NCBI GenBank assembly: GCA_958295785.1 | Contig: OY282377.1 | Location: forward strand, 4,218,896 to 4,282,895 | Source of the DNA: an uncultured Latescibacterota bacterium | Lineage (GTDB): Bacteria; Latescibacterota; UBA2968 | Length of the DNA stretch: 64,000 nucleotides | Direction of reading: 5' to 3' | In this document: positions 37,223 to 48,316 of the stretch, piece by piece | Layout: every line of letters starts with the position of its first letter | How positions within the stretch are numbered: the first letter of the stretch is position 1 | Translations under genes and position numbers: made by a program | Notes under the pieces: model-generated | The model's input: only the letters and a program-made list of their open reading frames with translations | Told to the model about the DNA's origin: nothing | Databases searched by the model: none

Positions 37223-38767
37223 ATGAAACGAATTTTGATATGCTGGATCGGAAATGCGGACCTGCGCGCTTCAGAAGGGGATGAAAGCGTTGGGGCGGGG
37301 CCCATTGCACAGGCATTGGATGTGCGCGAGTTTGACGAGATCTGTTTGATGACGGATTATCCAAAGGCCCGCGTCGCACCCTATCTCGCATGGCTCAAAA
37401 ACCGAACCGAGACTCCGCACCGTTTGTTTTGCGAGAAACTGTCAGGCCCCACCCGCTTTGGCGAAATCTACGAAGCGGCTGTGCGCGTTTGCACGGCGGC
37501 TCTGGGGCAACGGACCGATCAAATCGGCCTGACCTTTCACCTCAGCCCCGGCACTCCGGCAATGGCCGCTGTGTGGATCATTTTGGCGAAAACGCGCTTT
37601 CCCGCTGAATTGATCGAGTCCTCGATGGCGCACGGCGTTCAAACGGCCGCTGTGCCCTTTGATATTTCCGCAGAATTTCTGCCCGACCTCCTGCGTCAGC
37701 CCGACGCGCAACTCCGCTCGTTGAGCGAAGAAAAACCCACAGAATCCGCGAGTTTTGAAAACATACAGTACAGAAGCGAGGCCATGGCGCGGTTGGTCGA
37801 AAAAGCGCGGCGTGCTGCTGTGCGGAATATCCCCGTGTTGCTCGAAGGCGAATCCGGCACGGGCAAAGAACTTTTTGCCCATGCGATTCACAAGCACAGC
37901 CCGCGCAAAAACGCGCCATTTGTCGCCGTGAACTGCGGCGCGATTCCGCCCAATCTCGTGGAATCCGAACTGTTTGGACACGAAAAGGGCGCGTTTACCG
38001 GCGCCCAATTCCCGCGCAAAGGCCACTTTGAATCAGCAGACAAAGGGACGCTCTTTTTGGACGAAATTGGCGAGTTGCCCAAAGAGATACAGGTGAGATT
38101 GTTGCGCGTTTTACAAGAACGCGAGGTCGTCCGGATTGGGTCATCCAAACCCATCGCAGTGGATGTACGCATCATTGCGGCGACGAATCGCAATCTCATC
38201 GAGGAAGTTGGCGCAGGGCGGTTTCGAGAAGACCTGTTTTACCGGCTCGCGGTGGCCTATCTCAAATTGCCCCCACTGCGTGACCGCACCGGGGATTTGG
38301 GGTTGTTGATCGACCACTCGCTCGTTCAAATCAACCTGGAAAGCGAAGAACAGCCCGGGTACAAACACAAAAAAATTTCCGCCGGCGCAAAAAATCTTCT
38401 GCTCAACCACCACTGGCCGGGCAATATCCGCGAATTGCAAAACACGCTCAGGCGTGCAATGGTGTGGTCAGACGGTGAAATGCTCACCAAAGCAGACATT
38501 GAAGAAGCCCTCTTGCCCGGGTTTGGAAAACGCACAGAAGACATCCTGAACCGCCCCTTGGGCGCGGGATTTCGCCTGAACGGGCTGATTGGCGAAGTCG
38601 CAAAACACTATTTATACCGCGCTTTGGAAGAAGCTAAGACCAAAAAGGAAGCCGCCGAACTCGTGGGCTTGCCCAACCCCCAAACCTTTACCAACTGGGC
38701 GAAAAAGCACGGCGTGAAGGAAAAAAAAACAAATAAAAAAATTCGGATTGGCACGCGACATGCTTAA
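37223..38767 (+). CDS. Sigma54-dependent transcription activator with CARF-like N-terminal domain (RtcR-like)
   Basis: 514 residues. The N-terminal about 170 residues start MKRILICWIGNADLRA. They contain IGLTFHLSPGTPAMAAVWIILAKTRFPAELIESS, which resembles the CARF-like sensor of RtcR (ITTGTHVAQICWFLLAEARYLPARLIQSS), so a nucleotide or RNA-end ligand is likely. The AAA+ domain has Walker A GESGTGKE (about 208), the sigma54-contact loop GAFTGAQ (about 255), Walker B GTLFLDEIGE and a C-terminal HTH (KKEAAELVGLPNPQTFTNWAKKHG). No rtcBA genes are near. It is placed directly before a sigma54-type promoter and the ATPase modules it may control. Confidence 0.9.
   Translation: MKRILICWIGNADLRASEGDESVGAGPIAQALDVREFDEICLMTDYPKARVAPYLAWLKNRTETPHRLFCEKLSGPTRFGEIYEAAVRVCTAALGQRTDQIGLTFHLSPGTPAMAAVWIILAKTRFPAELIESSMAHGVQTAAVPFDISAEFLPDLLRQPDAQLRSLSEEKPTESASFENIQYRSEAMARLVEKARRAAVRNIPVLLEGESGTGKELFAHAIHKHSPRKNAPFVAVNCGAIPPNLVESELFGHEKGAFTGAQFPRKGHFESADKGTLFLDEIGELPKEIQVRLLRVLQEREVVRIGSSKPIAVDVRIIAATNRNLIEEVGAGRFREDLFYRLAVAYLKLPPLRDRTGDLGLLIDHSLVQINLESEEQPGYKHKKISAGAKNLLLNHHWPGNIRELQNTLRRAMVWSDGEMLTKADIEEALLPGFGKRTEDILNRPLGAGFRLNGLIGEVAKHYLYRALEEAKTKKEAAELVGLPNPQTFTNWAKKHGVKEKKTNKKIRIGTRHA
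38748..38765 (+). promoter_or_regulatory. Sigma54 (-24/-12) promoter
   Basis: TTGGCACGCGACATGCTT fits the sigma54 consensus, with GG at 38750-38751, GC at 38762-38763 and exactly 10 nt between. It lies in the last codons of the sigma54 activator gene and points downstream to the 24-codon ORF and the first ATPase module. Confidence 0.75.
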
Positions 38768-38912
38768 GTAATGGGTGTGACAGCAACGGGGATATTCGGA
38801 AGCGCGAGGCCAATGCCAAATCTGCTGACTTGGCGTGAATTGAACAGGACAGGTAGCCACCTGGGAAACGTGCAATGGCCTGGAAACCATCAGCGGAAAG
38901 GAGGTGAGGTCT

Positions 38913-38987
38913 ATGATTAAAGTTTTGCCATTTTTGTTCCAGTTGGCTATCGCCATAATAGACCACTGGCCATCCAAAAAGAAGTAA
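38913..38987 (+). CDS. 24-residue hydrophobic peptide
   Basis: It reads MIKVLPFLFQLAIAIID then HWPSKKK, a single hydrophobic helix with a basic tail. It has one of the strongest ribosome-binding sites in the window (aaaggaggtgag, 6 nt spacing). It follows the sigma54 promoter by about 150 nt of untranslated leader. The shape is that of small type I toxin-like membrane peptides, but a leader peptide role is equally possible. The second copy (43974 on) has lost its ATG and has an early TGA. Confidence 0.5.
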   Translation: MIKVLPFLFQLAIAIIDHWPSKKK

Positions 38988-39007
38988 CAGTTTGGGCGGA
39001 GACAGCA

Positions 39008-39039
39008 TCAGGGGGCGAGGGTTCTGCCTCGTCCCCTGA
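39008..39039. repeat. Conserved strong hairpin upstream of ATPase A
   Basis: TCAGGGGGCGAGG pairs with CCTCGTCCCCTGA (one G-U pair) around gttctg. It is kept in identical form at 44064-44095 in front of ATPase B. No T-run follows, so it is not a standard terminator. A TTGACA at 39048-39053 follows directly and may be a promoter part for the ATPase gene. Confidence 0.75.
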
Positions 39040-39160
39040 AAAATGGCTTGACAACCCTGCACGGTATTTTGAAAATTGCTCTCACCACAACGAATCATTG
39101 TATCAAACCCGCCAGTTCATGTTTGGCTGAACGCTTTTAACACCTTGAGAGGAATCGATC

Positions 39161-40564
39161 ATGCCCATTACCTCGATCACCATTGAAAACTTCAAGGGCA
39201 TTGGCGAGAAAGCCGTGACCATTCCCATTCGCCCCATCACCTTGCTATTTGGCAAAAACAGCTCGGGCAAATCGACCGTGTTGCAGGCAATGCGCTATTT
39301 TTTTCACATTTCGACCGAACAAATAATCAAACAAATAATCGAACAAAACTCCATAGAAATGAGTGGCGGCTATACTATTGACTTGAGCGATTTTCCTTCC
39401 TTGATACATCGCCATGAGTTAGATCGGAAAATTCGCATTCGTCTCAAAGAGGCCAGTGCCATAAGTGATAGTGATACACAAATTTATTCTTGGATGGAGG
39501 TGGTAACAGGTTGGAAAGGAGGACGCACCCATGTCGAGTCAATTTTACAGGGATGGGATATGAATGGCGAAGAAATGTGTTTCATCGTTTCAGGAACAAC
39601 ACCCAACGATGCAGTGATTGGCTCGAATGGCAAGGAATTGATTCGCCGAGAGGATTTCTTGGAGGATTCCCCATCTGAAATCTATGTGACTGCTAATCCT
39701 ACTAAGGATTTTAAGGATTTTATGAAGACTATATTCAGTGAAAAGCGAAAACCAAAAAAGCTTGATGCTTCCAACTCGTCTGTCGGTGTCGGTGTTGTTC
39801 TTCCGGCTAGTTTAGCTGGAGTAATAATAGGAACAGTAATAAGCGTATTAAAAGCAAGAAGATCAAAAAAAAGACATATTCAAGAATCTAAAAAGTTGGA
39901 TGCTATGCGCCATTTGGGGCCATTCCGCGAAGTGCCTCCTCGCGAGTATGAGAGACCCCAAACGCCCAATGAATCGCAATGGCAAAAAGGATTGGGAGCC
40001 TGGGATGCCCTCGCACGAGACCCCAAATTGCTCGAGAAAACAAACCACTATCTGAAAGAGGTTTTGCAACTTGGATACACCATCAAGCAACCGGAACCCG
40101 ATCAAAATTTTCAACTTTACGATGAAAATAATCAGATAGACGTCGGTCTTTCAGATGTCGGTGTTGGTGTTGCCCAGATCATTCCCGTTGTGGTGGGGGC
40201 ATTAGATAGTAGCTCTATCACTTTTGCGGTTGAACAGCCAGAACTCCATGTTCATCCCGCTGTGCAAGTGGCTTTGGGCGACTTGTTCATTGACGCGATA
40301 AAACTACGTGACCACCGCACCATGCTCATTGAAACGCATTCCGAGCACTTGTTGCTGAGGATTATGCGGCGGATGCGCGAGACTTTTGAAAATAGAATAG
40401 AAGAAAATCGTTTTCCAGTAACCCCCGATGATATTGCTGTGCTATTCGTTGAATCGCATGATTCGCGCACAATAATACGCGAAATGCCCGTCAATGAACG
40501 CGGCGAGTTGGTAGAAAATTGGCCGGATGGCTTCTTTGGGGAATATATCGAGGAGGTATTTTAG
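39161..40564 (+). CDS. OLD/RecF-like AAA ATPase with DUF3696 (ATPase A)
   Basis: 467 residues. Walker A GKNSSGKST (about 31-39), ABC-type signature LSDVGVGVAQ, Walker B FAVEQPELHVHP and LIETHSEHLLLR place it in the AAA_15/AAA_21 group. The end VENWPDGFFGEYIEE is DUF3696. A hydrophobic, TM-like stretch (GVVLPASLAGVIIGTVISVL, about 208-227) is embedded in the divergent middle, followed by RRSKKR. The partner gene overlaps its stop by 1 nt. This gene layout resembles two-gene defence systems of ATPase plus effector. The nucleic acid target is unknown. Confidence 0.88.
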   Translation: MPITSITIENFKGIGEKAVTIPIRPITLLFGKNSSGKSTVLQAMRYFFHISTEQIIKQIIEQNSIEMSGGYTIDLSDFPSLIHRHELDRKIRIRLKEASAISDSDTQIYSWMEVVTGWKGGRTHVESILQGWDMNGEEMCFIVSGTTPNDAVIGSNGKELIRREDFLEDSPSEIYVTANPTKDFKDFMKTIFSEKRKPKKLDASNSSVGVGVVLPASLAGVIIGTVISVLKARRSKKRHIQESKKLDAMRHLGPFREVPPREYERPQTPNESQWQKGLGAWDALARDPKLLEKTNHYLKEVLQLGYTIKQPEPDQNFQLYDENNQIDVGLSDVGVGVAQIIPVVVGALDSSSITFAVEQPELHVHPAVQVALGDLFIDAIKLRDHRTMLIETHSEHLLLRIMRRMRETFENRIEENRFPVTPDDIAVLFVESHDSRTIIREMPVNERGELVENWPDGFFGEYIEEVF

Positions 40565-41541
40565 TGGCTTTATTTTCTGAGTATGCTGTAACACCTGATG
40601 TTTTGGATCCAACTTGTTATCCAGATTCGACCGTGTTTTCTTCATTGATTGCTTCACTCAAAGAGGTTTTCTCGCATGAAGGCATCGTTCGAAATCTGCG
40701 CGATAAAGCATGGGGCGCGAATCTCATAAAGAGATTGAAAGGTGCAAAAAATCCTGAAAGTGAAAAGATATTGAGATTATTAGCCGAATTAAGCAACAAA
40801 GGCCGTTTGATACCCAGTGCTCCAGCATTACCTCCTCCTAGCCCGACAAATGAACGTGAGTGGTGTGAAGAGGCATTGGCTTCCCATAGCAATTTACCTT
40901 TAAACGGCATTATCGTAAGTGATGCGATTCGATCTACCTATCGCAGAAATTCGTTGGTTGAAAGTGTGAAGAGACTGTCGCTATCAACCTGTACATGGTG
41001 GTCCCTTACAAATAACTCGCTTCGGTTGAGCCGCGACATCAATGACTATAAAGACGCGCTTAAGTTGATTCTCAGACATGCAAAATCCATTAAATTTATA
41101 GACCCGCACATTGATCCAGAAAAACCAAACTATCGCCATTTTAGCCAATTGCTTGAGGTAGCGGGCAATAGAACGCCGCAACCACATGTTGAGATACACC
41201 GCAAAATCCTTCGTGGATCTGGACAAAACGTTCCCCTGTGGGATCCGCAAAACATGGAAGATACGTTTCGGAAAGCGTTTGAGCGTGTTCTCTTGGAGGC
41301 AAAATTAAAAATAAAAGTCTTTGTGTGGGATGATTTTCATGATCGTTATCTGATCAGCAATTTGGGGGGAATACAGATGGCTAATGGATTCGACACGTCA
41401 ACAGGCCCCCGTCGAACAACATGGTCACGCCTTGGACGCTCAGTTCGGGACGATGTACAGCGTGAATTTAACGATAAAAATGAAGATCATAGATTGCGTT
41501 TTACGTTTACAATACCGTTCCAGAACTCGCCGAGCGCATGA
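40564..41541 (+). CDS. ATPase partner protein A (putative effector)
   Basis: 325 residues from the GTG at 40564, which overlaps the ATPase stop and follows aggaggt. No family is recognised with certainty. Motifs shared with partner B (45901) are LRHAKSIKFIDPHIDP against LRLAANIHCIDRYFSV, and FHDRYLISNLGGI against FHNRFVLSNHCGV. The H-x-R-(Y/F)-x-x-S-N motif recalls a degenerate phospholipase D-type active site, so a nuclease or phosphodiesterase function is possible. The lengths of A and B are identical. It is probably the effector of ATPase A. Confidence 0.72.
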   Translation: MALFSEYAVTPDVLDPTCYPDSTVFSSLIASLKEVFSHEGIVRNLRDKAWGANLIKRLKGAKNPESEKILRLLAELSNKGRLIPSAPALPPPSPTNEREWCEEALASHSNLPLNGIIVSDAIRSTYRRNSLVESVKRLSLSTCTWWSLTNNSLRLSRDINDYKDALKLILRHAKSIKFIDPHIDPEKPNYRHFSQLLEVAGNRTPQPHVEIHRKILRGSGQNVPLWDPQNMEDTFRKAFERVLLEAKLKIKVFVWDDFHDRYLISNLGGIQMANGFDTSTGPRRTTWSRLGRSVRDDVQREFNDKNEDHRLRFTFTIPFQNSPSA

Positions 41542-41852: not shown

Positions 41853-42623
41853 ATGGCAACAGCACTGATTACGGGCGCGTCGAGTGGCATTGGGTTGGCA
41901 TTGGCGCGGGTGTTTGCAGCCGATGGGATCGATGTGATTTTGTCCGCGCGATCTGAGGATAAGTTGCACGCATTGGCAAAAGAGGTGCGCGAAAAATACC
42001 GCGTAAAGGCGCGGGTGATCGCGGCGGATTTATCTCTGCCGGGCGAGGCGCAGAAAATTTATGATCGAGTGGTGGAGCAGGTGGATTATCTGGTGAACAA
42101 TGCCGGATTTGGCGTGTACGGGGGTTTTGCAGAAACAGATTGGATGGCAGAGGCGGCTATGTTGCAGGTGAATATCGTCGCCCTCACGCAGTTGACCAAA
42201 TTGTTTTTGCCGGGTATGATCGCCAGAGGCCGGGGAAAAATTTTGAATGTGGCTTCGACTGCGGCCTTTCAACCCGGCCCGATGATGGCCGTGTATTTTG
42301 CGACCAAAGCTTATGTGTTGTCGTTTTCAGAGGCGATAGCCCGCGAATTAAAGGGCACGGGCGTGAGCATCACCGCGCTGTGTCCGGGCGCGACAGAGAC
42401 GGGTTTTCAACGCGCAGCAGGAGCGACGGGGTCGCGCGTGTTTGACTCGCGCACGTTGCCCACAGGCGCGGATGTCGCAACATATAGTTACAAGGCCCTG
42501 CAAAGGCAGAAGCGCGTGGCAATTCACGGGGCGCTCAATAAAATGCTAGCATTTGGAGTGCGCCTCTTGCCCCGACGGGCTGTGGTGGCAATTACAAAAA
42601 CACTGATTTCGAGGAGTGAATAG
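41853..42623 (+). CDS. Short-chain dehydrogenase/reductase (copy A)
   Basis: 256 residues with ITGASSGIGLALARVFA (NAD(P) binding), NNAGFGVYG, the catalytic Ser in NVASTAAF and YFATKAY (YxxxK). It is a classical SDR, and the substrate cannot be told. It differs from copy B (47546) at only two residues by my reading (T/A in VATYS, L/I in GALNK). Its ribosome-binding site is aaaaggagac. It was probably the original neighbour of the RDD gene now behind copy B. Confidence 0.92.
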   Translation: MATALITGASSGIGLALARVFAADGIDVILSARSEDKLHALAKEVREKYRVKARVIAADLSLPGEAQKIYDRVVEQVDYLVNNAGFGVYGGFAETDWMAEAAMLQVNIVALTQLTKLFLPGMIARGRGKILNVASTAAFQPGPMMAVYFATKAYVLSFSEAIARELKGTGVSITALCPGATETGFQRAAGATGSRVFDSRTLPTGADVATYSYKALQRQKRVAIHGALNKMLAFGVRLLPRRAVVAITKTLISRSE

Positions 42624-42782: not shown

Positions 42783-43971
42783 CTCTGTAAATTAAATAAT
42801 TTGTTATTTCAATTGTTTCAAGGAGGCGTTCACATGCCCAAACAACACGTCCAACTCACCCCCACAGACCGAGACACTTTGACCGCCTTGATCACCAAAG
42901 GAGACCAAAAAGCCCGAATCTACAAACGCGCTTTGGGCTTGCTTGAACTCGACCGAGGCAAAACCTACACTCAAGTGGCTCAAACCCTCGGCATGACCGG
43001 GCAGACCCTGAGTCATTGGGCAAAGAAATACCGCACCCTCGGCTTGGATGGCCTCAAAGATGCCCCGCGGCCAGGACGCCCGGTGGAGATGACGGGCAAG
43101 CAACGGGCCCAAATCACCGCCTTGGCCTGTTCAACCCCCCCGGCAGGCCATGGCAGATGGACGTTGCGCCTCTTGGCGGATCACTGCGTGGCATTGGGCT
43201 ATTGTGAGCATCTCTCACACACGCATGTCAAGACGATTCAAAAAAAACGAATTGAAGCCCCACTTGAAGAAAACCTGGTGCATCAGCAAAGTGGATGCGT
43301 CCTTTCTCGCACGCATGGAAGCCTTGCTTTGGCTGTATGACCAACCTTATGATCCCAATGTTCCTGTGGTCTGCTTTGATGAACGGCCTTGTTTTCTCAT
43401 CGGACAAGTCCTGGATCCCTTGCCCCTAACAACAGGCCAAGTGACCAAAGAACATGATGCCTATACCAAACACGGCTCGCGTGCGCTGTTGGCTGCCATT
43501 GAGCCTTTAAGCGGCAAACGGCTTGCCGAAATCTATCCCCGGCGCACGATGAAGGAAGACACCCACTTTTGTCAGGCCCTGACACAGCATTGACCACAAG
43601 CGGAGAAAATCCGCTTGGTGCAAGACAATCTCAATACGCATACCCGCCATGCCTTCTATCGTTCCTTGCCGGCCGATGAGGCGTTTGCCCGCGCGCAGAA
43701 GTTTGAGTTCTTCTTTACCCCCAAGTCGGCGAGTTGGCTCAACATGATCGAGATCGAATTTTCGGCTCTGGCGCGAGGATGTTTGAATAGGCGCATTGCG
43801 ACGCAGGCGGAACTACGCCGGGAAGTTTTGGCCTTCTTTTAGGAGCGAGAGGCCAAGGGTATCCCCTTGAATTGGCAGTTCACTTTGCCCAAGGCCAGAG
43901 ACAAGATGAATACCCATTATCAATGCGTTTATCCAGACAATTCAAAACTTAAAATAACTTAATTTACAGAG
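42783..43971 (+). mobile_element. IS630-family insertion sequence (decayed)
   Basis: Terminal inverted repeats ctctgtaaattaa and ttaatttacagag are flanked by TA dinucleotides (42781-42782, 43972-43973), the TA target duplication of the IS630/Tc1 group. Length is 1189 bp. It lies exactly at the junction of the two duplicated segments. Confidence 0.88.
42834..43962 (+). pseudogene. IS630-type transposase, frameshifted
   Basis: The first frame (from 42834) has the HTH part MPKQHVQLTPTDRDTL and YTQVAQTLGMTGQTLSHWAK. A frameshift near 43240 is needed to reach the DDE part: VVCFDERPC, then a TGA at 43591, then VQDNLNTH and SASWLNMIEIEF, then a TAG at 43840 and the end at 43960. One frameshift and two stops make it inactive. 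Confidence 0.85.
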
Positions 43972-43973
43972 TA

Positions 43974-44215
43974 TTAAAGTTTTGCCATTTTTGTTCCAGT
44001 TGGCTATCGCCATAATAGACCACTGACCGTCCAAAAGAAGTAACAGTTTGGGCGGAGACAGCATCAGGGGGCGAGGGTTCTGCCTCGTCCCCTGAAAAAT
44101 GGCTTGACAACCCTGCGCGGTGTTTTGAAATTGCTCTCACCACAACGAATCATTGTATCAAACCCGCCAGTTCATGTTTGGCTGAACGCTTTTAACACCT
44201 TGAGAGGAATCGATC
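43974..44215 (+). pseudogene. Copy B leader: broken small-peptide ORF and hairpin
   Basis: From 43974 the sequence repeats the peptide ORF of 38913, but the ATG is lost to the IS junction and a TGG to TGA change stops it after DH. The hairpin at 44064-44095 and the TTGACA after it are preserved. Module B therefore lacks the peptide and has no sigma54 promoter in front. Confidence 0.82.
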
Positions 44216-45898
44216 ATGCCCATTACCTCGATCACCATTGAAAACTTCAAGGGCATTGGCGAGAAAGCCGTGACCATTCCCATTCGCCCCATCACCTTGC
44301 TGTTTGGCAAAAACAGCTCGGGCAAATCGACCGTGTTGCAGGCAATGCGCTATTTTTCCGAAGTTAAAAACCTATGGCCCAATATGGGCCGCATAGAAAT
44401 GAGTGGCGGCTTGAATACGGACTTGAACGATTTTCGTTCTCTGGTGCATCGCCATGAGTTGGATCGGAAAATTCGCATTCGATGGACGATGGGTGATAAT
44501 GCTACACAAACTGCTGAGTGGTACGAAGTGGTAACGGGGTGGCAAGAAGGGGATCCCAGATTCCACAACTTTGAATCATCCTTAAATGGACTGGTCTTAA
44601 AGACAGGAGAAGAAATATGTTTCAGTTTCAGTTCAAGGCAGGAAACATCCGCCGATGCGGTGATTGGGTCAAATGGCGAGGAATTGATTTTTTGGAAAGA
44701 AATCAAAATAGAGGATATCGGAAAAATATATGTGAATACGACTGATCTTTCTAATCAGGCTAAGAAGCTCATAGATTATATGAATGATCGAATCCATAAA
44801 TTACTTCTTAATCCGAAAGAAACTAAAACGGAAAAGTTTGTTGATACACTTGGACGAAAAAAGTTCATTATACGCCATTTAGGGCCATTCCGCGAAGTGC
44901 CTCCTCGCGATTATGAGAGACCCAAAACGCCCGATGAATCGCGATGGCAAAAAGGGTTGGGAGCCTGGGATGCCCTCGCACGAGACCCCAAATTGCTCGA
45001 GAAAACAAACCACTATCTGAAAGAGATTTTGCAACTCGGATACACCATCAAGCAACCGGAACCCGATCAAAACTTTCAACTTTACGATAAAAATAATGAT
45101 ATAGACGTCGGTCTTTCAGATGTCGGTGTTGGTGTTGCCCAGATCATTCCCGTTGTGGTGGGGGCATTAGATGGTAGCCTTAGAACTTTTGCGGTTGAAC
45201 AGCCAGAACTCCATGTTCATCCCGCTGTGCAAGTGGCTTTGGGCGACTTGTTCATTGACAGCGTAAGAAAACGCGAGCAGGATTTGGCGGAGTTCCGGCA
45301 AAAGCTAAAAAAAGAAAAAGACCTTGAGATCAATAAACTCAATAAACTCAATAAACTCATTGAAAATCTTGAGAAATCAAAAAAAATAGAAAACACCGAG
45401 AACAAGGAGCCCATTGAGATAAGTGAGAGGAGAATTGAGGATTTGAAAAAACACGTGCTTCATGTCAATGAGCGCACTGAGATTTTTGAGACTTTAGACC
45501 TTCTTGATTTAATAAAAAAACTAATAGAAAAAGACTCTATGTTTATTTTTTTTCTTTTGCCTAAAGAAAACTCCATGATCATTGAAAACCCTAAGTTTTT
45601 AGAGTTCATTGACGCAACAAAACAACGTGACCGCACCATGCTCATTGAAACGCATTCCGAGCACTTGCTGTTGCGATTGTTGCGACGTGTGCGCGAGACG
45701 AAGCGACGACGCAGGGCCGAGACAACGGAATCAGAACAGATAGGCTACGAATTGACGCCCGAAGATCTATCAGTGATCTATGTACGGTCAACGCCAGCAG
45801 GTGTTAAGTTCACCCCAATCAATGTAACGGAAGATGGCGACTTTGATGCCCCTTGGCCTGAAGGCTTTTTTGAAGAACGCGATTCGGAGTGGTATTGA
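44216..45898 (+). CDS. OLD/RecF-like AAA ATPase with DUF3696 (ATPase B)
   Basis: 560 residues. The first about 45 residues, the block LGPFREVPPR to QIIPVVVGALD, and FAVEQPELHVHPAVQVALGDLFID are nearly identical to ATPase A. Walker A, signature and Walker B are intact. Residues about 48-215 are diverged and lack the TM-like stretch. A charged coiled-coil insertion of about 115 residues lies between the Walker B region and LIETHSEHLLLRLLRR. The end APWPEGFFEERD is DUF3696. The partner gene follows 2 nt after the stop. Confidence 0.88.
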   Translation: MPITSITIENFKGIGEKAVTIPIRPITLLFGKNSSGKSTVLQAMRYFSEVKNLWPNMGRIEMSGGLNTDLNDFRSLVHRHELDRKIRIRWTMGDNATQTAEWYEVVTGWQEGDPRFHNFESSLNGLVLKTGEEICFSFSSRQETSADAVIGSNGEELIFWKEIKIEDIGKIYVNTTDLSNQAKKLIDYMNDRIHKLLLNPKETKTEKFVDTLGRKKFIIRHLGPFREVPPRDYERPKTPDESRWQKGLGAWDALARDPKLLEKTNHYLKEILQLGYTIKQPEPDQNFQLYDKNNDIDVGLSDVGVGVAQIIPVVVGALDGSLRTFAVEQPELHVHPAVQVALGDLFIDSVRKREQDLAEFRQKLKKEKDLEINKLNKLNKLIENLEKSKKIENTENKEPIEISERRIEDLKKHVLHVNERTEIFETLDLLDLIKKLIEKDSMFIFFLLPKENSMIIENPKFLEFIDATKQRDRTMLIETHSEHLLLRLLRRVRETKRRRRAETTESEQIGYELTPEDLSVIYVRSTPAGVKFTPINVTEDGDFDAPWPEGFFEERDSEWY

Positions 45899-45900
45899 TT

Positions 45901-46878
45901 ATGCTGAAAATTTTTGCTATTGATCCCAAAATCTGTGGAAAATTGGATTGGTTTAAATACTGCACAGAGCACTGCCGGCCATCACAAGGGCGCGTGATGG
46001 CCGATTTGCCGAACGGTCAGTGGTACCGAAATGCGGAACAGATCATCGACCAACTCGCTCAAGACCTTAAACTCAAGCCCGTAAAAAGACGCGGCTTGAA
46101 AGAACGTCTGAAGAGTGTGCAAGCCCAACTGGTAGATCGACCAGGAACTGCTTGGACGAATTGGTATGATGATGATTTTTCACAATTTTCTTGGCTTACC
46201 AAAATAAGGATGGAGCACCAGCGAGAGCCGTTTTCTCTTGTCGTCAGTCCTGACTGCGATGGAGGTGGTATGCAAGAGTATCACCCCGATTATCTCGATA
46301 GAACGGTACCCGCTTGGAATACGCCCAGTGGCGTTTCAATTACGCGCAGTCCTGGAGAATTTGTAACTGCCATCCTGCCAATGCTTCGCCTAGCTGCGAA
46401 TATTCACTGTATAGATCGGTATTTTAGTGTAGATCATAACAGTTCTCACACCCAAAATTACAAACGTATTATCGAGAAGTTAGCCTCAGATTGTGATGAA
46501 TTTCCATCCCTGACAATCCATTGCTGCCCAGAGGAAAGTGCTATGCCTGACAAAAACTACTTTGAAAATGAACTGAGCAAGTACTACGCCCCCTTAATAT
46601 CCAGAGGAAAGTCTATGGCGGTTTTTTTCTGGCAGGTAAAAGAACAGGCACAAATAGAAAGAGGCGCCCATCCTTTTCACAATCGCTTTGTGCTATCTAA
46701 TCATTGCGGCGTAAGTGTGGGATATGGCACAGATAGTGCAAAGCAACAGACTCAGGCACCAGACCTTCTCCAGATTATCGACCATGAAATATATCGGAAT
46801 TTGTGGAATCAAATTCGGGATGAGACATTTCCCATGCTCTACATTGAGCACAAGTTTGAGATTAAGGGGACCGCGTGA
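45901..46878 (+). CDS. ATPase partner protein B (putative effector)
   Basis: 325 residues from the ATG at 45901, exactly as long as partner A; a GTG at 45889 is an alternative start. Overall similarity to A is low, but SITRSPGEFVTAILPMLRLA with IHCIDRYF, and HPFHNRFVLSNHCGVSVGYG, align with the A motifs. No other domain is recognised. The identical gene position, length and motif order indicate one fast-diverging family. Function as effector of ATPase B is inferred. Confidence 0.72.
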   Translation: MLKIFAIDPKICGKLDWFKYCTEHCRPSQGRVMADLPNGQWYRNAEQIIDQLAQDLKLKPVKRRGLKERLKSVQAQLVDRPGTAWTNWYDDDFSQFSWLTKIRMEHQREPFSLVVSPDCDGGGMQEYHPDYLDRTVPAWNTPSGVSITRSPGEFVTAILPMLRLAANIHCIDRYFSVDHNSSHTQNYKRIIEKLASDCDEFPSLTIHCCPEESAMPDKNYFENELSKYYAPLISRGKSMAVFFWQVKEQAQIERGAHPFHNRFVLSNHCGVSVGYGTDSAKQQTQAPDLLQIIDHEIYRNLWNQIRDETFPMLYIEHKFEIKGTA

Positions 46879-46999: not shown

Positions 47000-47310
47000 A
47001 TGGGCATATTTCGCAGGGGTCGGCCCAGCCGACAGGCGCCACCCCATAAACCCGGTCTCTATCGGTTCAGAGATCGAAACACGGGCGAGATTGATTATAT
47101 CGGCGAGACCGTGAATTTAGCGCACAGGATAGGGGAGCATTTTCGGTCTCCTAAACCCGTATCCCCAAAAACCCACCACGCCGAATGGCAGATGGCGGAT
47201 GGTCGAAGCACCTCCAGACCCGCCGCGCGCATGAGCGATCTAAAATCAACCAGCACAAGCCGCGACAGAACAAACGCGATGGAGGTGGTGGTCGAAGGGC
47301 AAAACGATAA
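47000..47310 (+). pseudogene. GIY-YIG nuclease gene with a frameshift (copy B)
   Basis: It starts at the ATG at 47000 after aggaggaatt. GLYRFRDRNTG, DYIGETVNLAHRIGEHF and EWQMADGRS are the GIY-YIG core. After about 47217 the homologous end RRAHERSKINQHKPRQNKR lies in another frame, ending in a TAA at 47310. Comparison with copy A (41530) suggests a one-base loss in ccagac-ccgcc. Read without correction it is a 108-residue protein ending at 47326. Confidence 0.78.
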
Positions 47311-47438
47311 TTTGCACACCGGTTAGTGATCAGGCCACCTCGCTGTCCGGCTGCTTTCAAGCGAGAGGCGAGAGGTGGACGCACGGCCCAATCTTTACAG
47401 ATTATAGGTGCGTGTCATCAACAGTGGTTAAAAAAATT

Positions 47439-47545: not shown

Positions 47546-48316
47546 ATGGCAACAGCACTGATTACGGGCGCGTCGAGTGGCATTGGGTTGGCATTGGCGC
47601 GGGTGTTTGCAGCCGATGGGATCGATGTGATTTTGTCCGCGCGATCTGAGGATAAGTTGCACGCATTGGCAAAAGAGGTGCGCGAAAAATACCGCGTAAA
47701 GGCGCGGGTGATCGCGGCGGATTTGTCTCTGCCGGGCGAGGCGCAGAAAATTTATGATCGAGTGGTGGAGCAGGTGGATTATCTGGTGAACAATGCCGGG
47801 TTTGGCGTGTACGGGGGTTTTGCAGAAACAGATTGGATGGCAGAGGCGGCTATGTTGCAGGTGAATATCGTCGCCCTCACGCAGTTGACCAAATTGTTTT
47901 TGCCGGGTATGATCGCCAGAGGCCGGGGAAAAATTTTGAATGTGGCTTCGACTGCGGCCTTTCAACCCGGCCCGATGATGGCCGTGTATTTTGCGACCAA
48001 AGCTTATGTGTTGTCGTTTTCAGAGGCGATAGCCCGCGAATTAAAGGGCACGGGCGTGAGCATCACCGCGCTGTGTCCGGGCGCGACAGAGACGGGTTTT
48101 CAACGCGCAGCAGGAGCGACGGGGTCGCGCGTGTTTGACTCGCGCACGTTGCCCACAGGCGCGGATGTCGCAGCATATAGTTACAAGGCCCTGCAAAGGC
48201 AGAAGCGCGTGGCAATTCACGGGGCGATCAATAAAATGCTGGCATTTGGAGTGCGCCTCTTGCCCCGACGGGCTGTGGTGGCAATTACAAAAACACTGAT
48301 TTCGAGGAGTGAATAG
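47546..48316 (+). CDS. Short-chain dehydrogenase/reductase (copy B)
   Basis: 256 residues, near-identical to the gene at 41853, with TGASSGIG, NNAGFG and YFATKAY all intact. The duplication must be recent, or kept uniform by gene conversion. It is followed by the RDD gene. Substrate unknown. Confidence 0.92.
   Translation: MATALITGASSGIGLALARVFAADGIDVILSARSEDKLHALAKEVREKYRVKARVIAADLSLPGEAQKIYDRVVEQVDYLVNNAGFGVYGGFAETDWMAEAAMLQVNIVALTQLTKLFLPGMIARGRGKILNVASTAAFQPGPMMAVYFATKAYVLSFSEAIARELKGTGVSITALCPGATETGFQRAAGATGSRVFDSRTLPTGADVAAYSYKALQRQKRVAIHGAINKMLAFGVRLLPRRAVVAITKTLISRSE

Follow-up and report, generated by a model that had tools for sequence, protein, structure and literature searches.

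Does the short open reading frame that lies between a sigma54 activator gene and an ATPase gene in the window (the whole 64-kb stretch of DNA analysed here) encode a peptide, and what could such a peptide do? The frame runs from an ATG at 38913 to a TAA at 38985-38987 and would encode the 24 residues MIKVLPFLFQLAIAIIDHWPSKKK; it lies on the + strand, as do the activator gene, promoters, leader, hairpin, ATPase and partner genes and dead peptide copy described below. Its coding status and promoter are well supported, and we regard this 24-codon gene as a candidate for a very small, rapidly changing effector that acts at the membrane in a bacterial defence module. The first-pass annotation had described a membrane peptide, regulated and toxic or signalling in appearance, situated between regulator and ATPase, behind a sigma54 promoter and a long leader. 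Its frame, coordinates and ribosome site proved correct to the base, the arrangement was confirmed by the sequence and by profile matches, and its interpretation is supported in part: a translated, regulated membrane peptide is supported, a toxic or signalling action is a hypothesis.

The 24-codon gene and its homologues

The Shine-Dalgarno sequence AAAGGAGGTGAG (38897-38908) has a GGAGG that ends eight bases 5' of the ATG, and a strong AAAGGAG(G) also precedes the peptides of the related genomes G040, G027 and G010. The predicted peptide has a 13-residue mean hydropathy of 2.55 and a net charge of +3. On both strands of the 64-kb window, AGGAGG is followed 3-10 nt downstream by an ORF of 15-45 codons in five cases, two of which have strongly hydrophobic cores, namely the peptide (2.55) and one minus-strand ORF (2.39). 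Because that ORF scores similarly, ribosome site and hydrophobicity alone are not decisive. Comparison of the peptide with known toxin families gave no match in Pfam, PADLOC, NCBIfam or PHROGs.

Homologues of the peptide occur in G040 and G010. In G040, which belongs to another family of the class, the peptide MRKWLPIAIQVVIVVIDTLSKKRR is found at the same position, and the order of sigma54 element, leader, aaaggaggtacggct-ATG, peptide and hairpin is that of the window. The two peptides align without gaps, with 9 of 24 residues identical and a BLOSUM score of 41. This score was reached by one of 200,000 free shuffles and by 13 of 200,000 shuffles that preserved the profile of hydrophobic core and basic tail; the other five frames all gave negative scores (-3 to -23). 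Second codon positions are shared at 14 of the 24 codons. The third homologue, MFTLLKICVPVVVALAFEVVENWSDITKDKR, lies in G010 upstream of a second ATPase of this type, and here 13 of 15 second codon positions are identical to those of the window but only five first and six third positions, which at the sequence level is the mark of selection for residue class. By itself, the similarity between window and G010 is weaker under profile-preserving shuffles (269 of 20,000), so the case for this pair rests in part on the shared position, ribosome site and hairpin. In G027 the sequence breaks off at a contig edge within a gene of this type, of which the start, aaaggaggtgatgctATGAAAAAATGGCT, is present.

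Conservation of the ORF in homologous loci had been suggested as a check, and it revealed that frame and hydrophobicity are kept where the DNA has diverged. The pattern that would speak against a gene, nucleotides conserved and frame not, was looked for as well, and the opposite was found in the homologous loci. These comparisons show protein-level selection on the reading frame, and by the same evidence the peptide gene is genuine and has been retained in distant relatives, although hardly any of its DNA sequence has.

A profile built from the three sequences matches the peptides of the window, G040 and G010 at 50, 48 and 43 bits, as profile members do by construction, and a dead copy described below at 37 bits. 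A search of 64 genomes from the phylum with this profile gave nothing further at E <= 0.001. Weak matches in the rest of the class (E 0.07 to 10) were rejected, being mostly within other frames or without a start; of the eight inspected, seven held nothing convincing and the eighth was the G040 homologue already described.

Promoter, hairpin and the variation of the peptide slot

The activator gene (37223-38767) is intact and encodes an RtcR-type sigma54 activator of the RtcR_PspF2 group, with CARF domain, sigma54 AAA domain containing the GAFTGA loop, and HTH all present (PADLOC PDLC01995, RtcR_PspF2, E 3.3e-195, residues 2-498; Pfam Sigma54_activat, E 4.8e-72). Its nearest named matches are in metagenome-assembled genomes labelled Latescibacterota and Gemmatimonadota, and no homologue was found in viral contigs. 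The locus resembles the RtcR/rtcBA RNA-repair operon in that a CARF-AAA-HTH activator drives a neighbouring sigma54 promoter, but its targets differ: the first genes 3' of the activator are those of the peptide and an AAA_15 ATPase, not rtcBA, and the activator scores 341.9 bits against the true RtcR equivalog, below the cut-off of 650. The ligands of RtcR itself include 5' tRNA fragments that carry a cyclic phosphate (PMC7790460). The related group of RtcR-like (PspF-type) activators precedes restriction and defence superoperons, including restriction-modification loci and CoCoNuT genes (PMC4012209, PMC11090510); these loci drive large defence genes directly, whereas a peptide cistron was found only in the class to which the window belongs.

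The sigma54 promoter is a -24/-12 element, TGGCACGCGACATGCT (38749-38764), which reaches 13/14 of the consensus weight and overlaps the end of the activator gene. With rpoN present in the genome (5.66 Mb, a single contig), both marks of a sigma54-dependent operon were found. In the RtcR-like loci examined, the promoter lies immediately downstream of the activator: of 75 homologous loci, 62 have such an element behind the regulator gene, typically 3-15 bases past the matched activator end, compared with 3.3% of length-matched random stretches. Most other RtcR-type loci keep this promoter, but directly ahead of a large restriction or ATPase gene. The idea that such a peptide generally accompanies RtcR-type activators was rejected by a scan of 69 locus entries, in which a hydrophobic mini-gene led by a ribosome site came right after the activator only in the window, G040 and G027. 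The first ~50 nt at the promoter are conserved with the second modules of G010 and G006.

Counted from the -12 element, the 5' leader would span 138 nt (about 38775-38912). Its fold is no more stable than those of shuffled sequences (z +0.6) and no Rfam match was found, and we rejected a non-coding leader RNA as the main story on these grounds. After the peptide follows a 13-bp G-rich hairpin (39008-39039; -27.8 kcal/mol, z -5.6), which is not an ordinary terminator because it has no U tract. G040, G010, G006 and G027 also have hairpins in this position, with z values of -4.5 to -7.0; the stems differ in sequence with all pairs standard, and three two-sided changes between window and G040 constitute covariation. 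A sigma70-like promoter, TTGACA-17-GAAAAT (39048-39076; 10/12), is possibly the basal promoter of the ATPase operon, and its -35 box CTTGACAA is conserved in related loci. No terminator-like site was found in this stretch of the window. In another locus, an attenuator-like inverted repeat with a T run (GTTTCAGGCAGACCTGAACGTTTTTT) was observed about 20 bases before the ATPase start (L014:7700-7730), with equivalents in L012 and L013 and a weaker one in the window at 39115-39138.

What occupies the slot between promoter and hairpin varies among relatives. In the second module of G006, the promoter and the first ~50 bases of the leader are almost the same as in the window, but the slot holds a non-homologous hydrophobic peptide of 41 aa (MGPSVGIAYGGTAIGLPALVLVGTPLLAGFVIAAIIFSDDD), after which come a hairpin and the ATPase. 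G040 has a second small peptide (MSKMFNKDNARLAAELAVAILNVLLGRSKRGR), G027 has two other small peptides, and in G010 the second sigma54 promoter is separated from the peptide by a GIY-YIG gene. Four first modules of the same genus keep the promoter, part of the leader, the surroundings of the hairpin and the ATPase, and have no peptide ORF, no 5' arm of the hairpin and none of the remaining leader, an absence that looks like a deletion. Because these four relatives keep the ATPase without the first-module peptide, the peptide is dispensable. The sigma54-contact loop is GAFTGA or GSFTGA in 47 of 49 loops tallied from the wider set; it is replaced by GAFSNA in L004 and L014, NAFTDA in L012 and GTFANA in L013, and the L012 activator (G010) also contains an in-frame stop. 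Activator decay and peptide loss coincide at the first module; G006 and G010, two of these genomes, nonetheless keep peptides in their second modules.

From this variation we tentatively propose, with more doubt than confidence, a module consisting of sigma54 promoter, leader, optional GIY-YIG gene, exchangeable tiny membrane peptide, conserved hairpin, AAA_15 ATPase and partner, in which the peptide slot would be a variable effector that is replaced, or evolves almost beyond recognition, within conserved surroundings. An arms race with phage would be expected to cause such turnover of effectors. The small GIY-YIG-domain gene of G010 (L012:11283-11594) has an RRGRPSRQ start; a relative in the window (47000-47326), whose end is divergent or frameshifted, follows the second ATPase pair. 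A 52-codon mini-gene at L009:3266-3424 (MARRIRSDARVRTVEKKLG...) is basic and non-hydrophobic, has its own ribosome site and lies between two membrane-peptide genes; it is possibly an antagonist or RNA binder.

Downstream genes and the possible role of the peptide

The first gene after the hairpin encodes an AAA_15/DUF3696 ATPase (39161-40564; Pfam AAA_15, E 7.8e-24), which by its PADLOC matches resembles the defence candidates PDC-M55A (E 8.4e-51) and AriA (E 3.9e-26). Its partner gene (40564-41541) begins with a GTG that overlaps the ATPase stop and encodes a protein with a conserved FHDRYLISN motif. For this partner no family match was found in Pfam, PADLOC or NCBIfam and its profile gave no PDB relative; a structure model was unusable (pLDDT 37). 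AriA of PARIS and the PADLOC candidate PDC-M55A belong to the same ATPase superfamily and likewise have a downstream partner gene. Unlike in PARIS (AriA-AriB), the ATPase of the window matches PDC-M55A and NsnB better than AriA, and its partner has no PADLOC match. In a P2 prophage record, a related ATPase is paired with a partner of 333 aa that is unrelated, which is defence-like company and no evidence on the peptide.

We judge it an even call that the gene encodes an RtcR/sigma54-induced, 24-residue, single-helix peptide of the inner membrane with TisB-like membrane action, as first cistron of an AAA-ATPase defence-like operon. As far as sequence can tell, no known peptide family matches the candidate effector in its RtcR/sigma54-controlled module, and no fitting literature was found on tiny membrane effectors in such operons. 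TisB, the type I toxin of tisB/istR-1 in E. coli, is similar in having fewer than 30 residues and one amphipathic membrane helix, a K-x6-Q pair, C-terminal lysines, stress-induced transcription and a leader before the ORF. In TisB, K12 and Q19, seven apart, are essential, and the charged C-terminal residues, lysines, matter (PMC11449926). The peptides of window and G040 share K3, Q10 and D17 at a spacing of seven as well as the basic tail; the stripe is not kept in G010, where Q10 aligns with A and A14 with E. The TisB-like polar pattern, found in two of the three homologues, is by analogy a lead. The peptide differs from TisB in showing no sequence homology to it, in sigma54/RtcR control instead of the SOS response, in having an ATPase operon downstream and in that no antisense RNA was found: a simple consensus scan of 38600-39250 detected no minus-strand promoter-like site for an antisense antitoxin, and Rfam gave no match.

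If the peptide acts in this way, RNA fragments with cyclic-phosphate ends that accumulate upon tRNA damage or phage infection would probably stimulate the RtcR-type activator, a signal suggested by analogy with RtcR. The activator would switch on the operon through sigma54 with the peptide as first cistron, and the strong ribosome site would allow a burst of peptide translation followed by membrane insertion. Small peptide oligomers could then perturb the proton gradient, making the peptide toxic, so that the cell slows or stops. The AAA ATPase and its partner would be linked to the peptide and serve this defence-like response inside the cell, and the hairpin just past the stop codon may delimit or protect the peptide message.

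The peptide could instead be a small membrane subunit or anchor that recruits the ATPase/partner complex to the membrane and is not toxic alone. All homologues found directly precede this ATPase family and the basic tail suits the cytoplasmic membrane face, but we consider this role fairly unlikely, as four relatives keep the ATPase without the first-module peptide and the G006 peptide is unrelated in sequence though the ATPases are related. It is unlikely, too, that the gene is a regulatory leader peptide whose translation, together with the hairpin, adjusts how strongly the downstream ATPase is expressed, the product itself being irrelevant. What is selected is hydrophobicity (second positions 13/15 in G010 and 14/24 in G040) and not particular codons, no terminator-like site was seen in the stretch, the hairpin lacks a U tract and the leader has no unusual stability, although the position between promoter and ATPase and the conserved hairpin with its covarying stem, right past the stop codon, would suit such a device.

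A secreted or membrane-shed signalling peptide might equally be small and hydrophobic with a basic end and under inducible control; we give this hardly any credence, as the genes adjoining the peptide include none for a dedicated exporter, a peptidase or a receptor. That the ORF is accidental within a non-coding leader RNA is highly improbable: frame and hydrophobicity are kept while the DNA diverges and a strong ribosome site stands before each peptide, against which can be set the four same-genus first modules that have promoter and partial leader but no ORF. Were the peptide an effector, a membrane-acting peptide would be under the direct control of RtcR-type RNA-damage sensing, tRNA cleavage would be linked to abortive infection, and the regions from other sigma54 activators to their ATPase operons would be worth searching for unannotated peptides. 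Gene callers and defence-system libraries readily overlook membrane peptides this small.

The dead peptide copy and the second ATPase pair

A dead copy of the peptide gene lies at 43973-44046, without start codon and ribosome site. Codon W19 has become TGA (44024-44026) and one base is deleted in the lysine run. From codon 2 to the stop, this copy and its downstream flank repeat the first at 97-99%, ahead of the second ATPase pair. A duplicate that had lost its start codon and gained a stop was already recognized in the first-pass annotation, which placed its beginning at 43974 instead of 43973 (codon 2); the accompanying claim of one functional copy also held, as the profile finds the peptide, the dead copy and no other in the genome.

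The second pair (pair B) comprises a diverged AAA_15 ATPase (44216-45898) and its partner protein (45901-46878), and has an orthologous tandem pair in L013. We rejected 44216-46878 as a plain tandem duplicate, since the diverged second ATPase/partner pair also follows the first pair in L013. Near-identity between the pairs is confined to the stretch upstream and to portions of the ATPase gene, its 5' end in particular. As pair B is old, being also present in L013, the recent event copied flank and ATPase stretches, not the whole block. Directly before the dead copy lies a transposase-like remnant with stops and frameshifts (42801-43842), which may have helped the flank copying. Two near-identical short-chain dehydrogenase-like genes (41853-42623 and 47546-48316; ~99% over the 300 nt compared) bracket the second ATPase pair.
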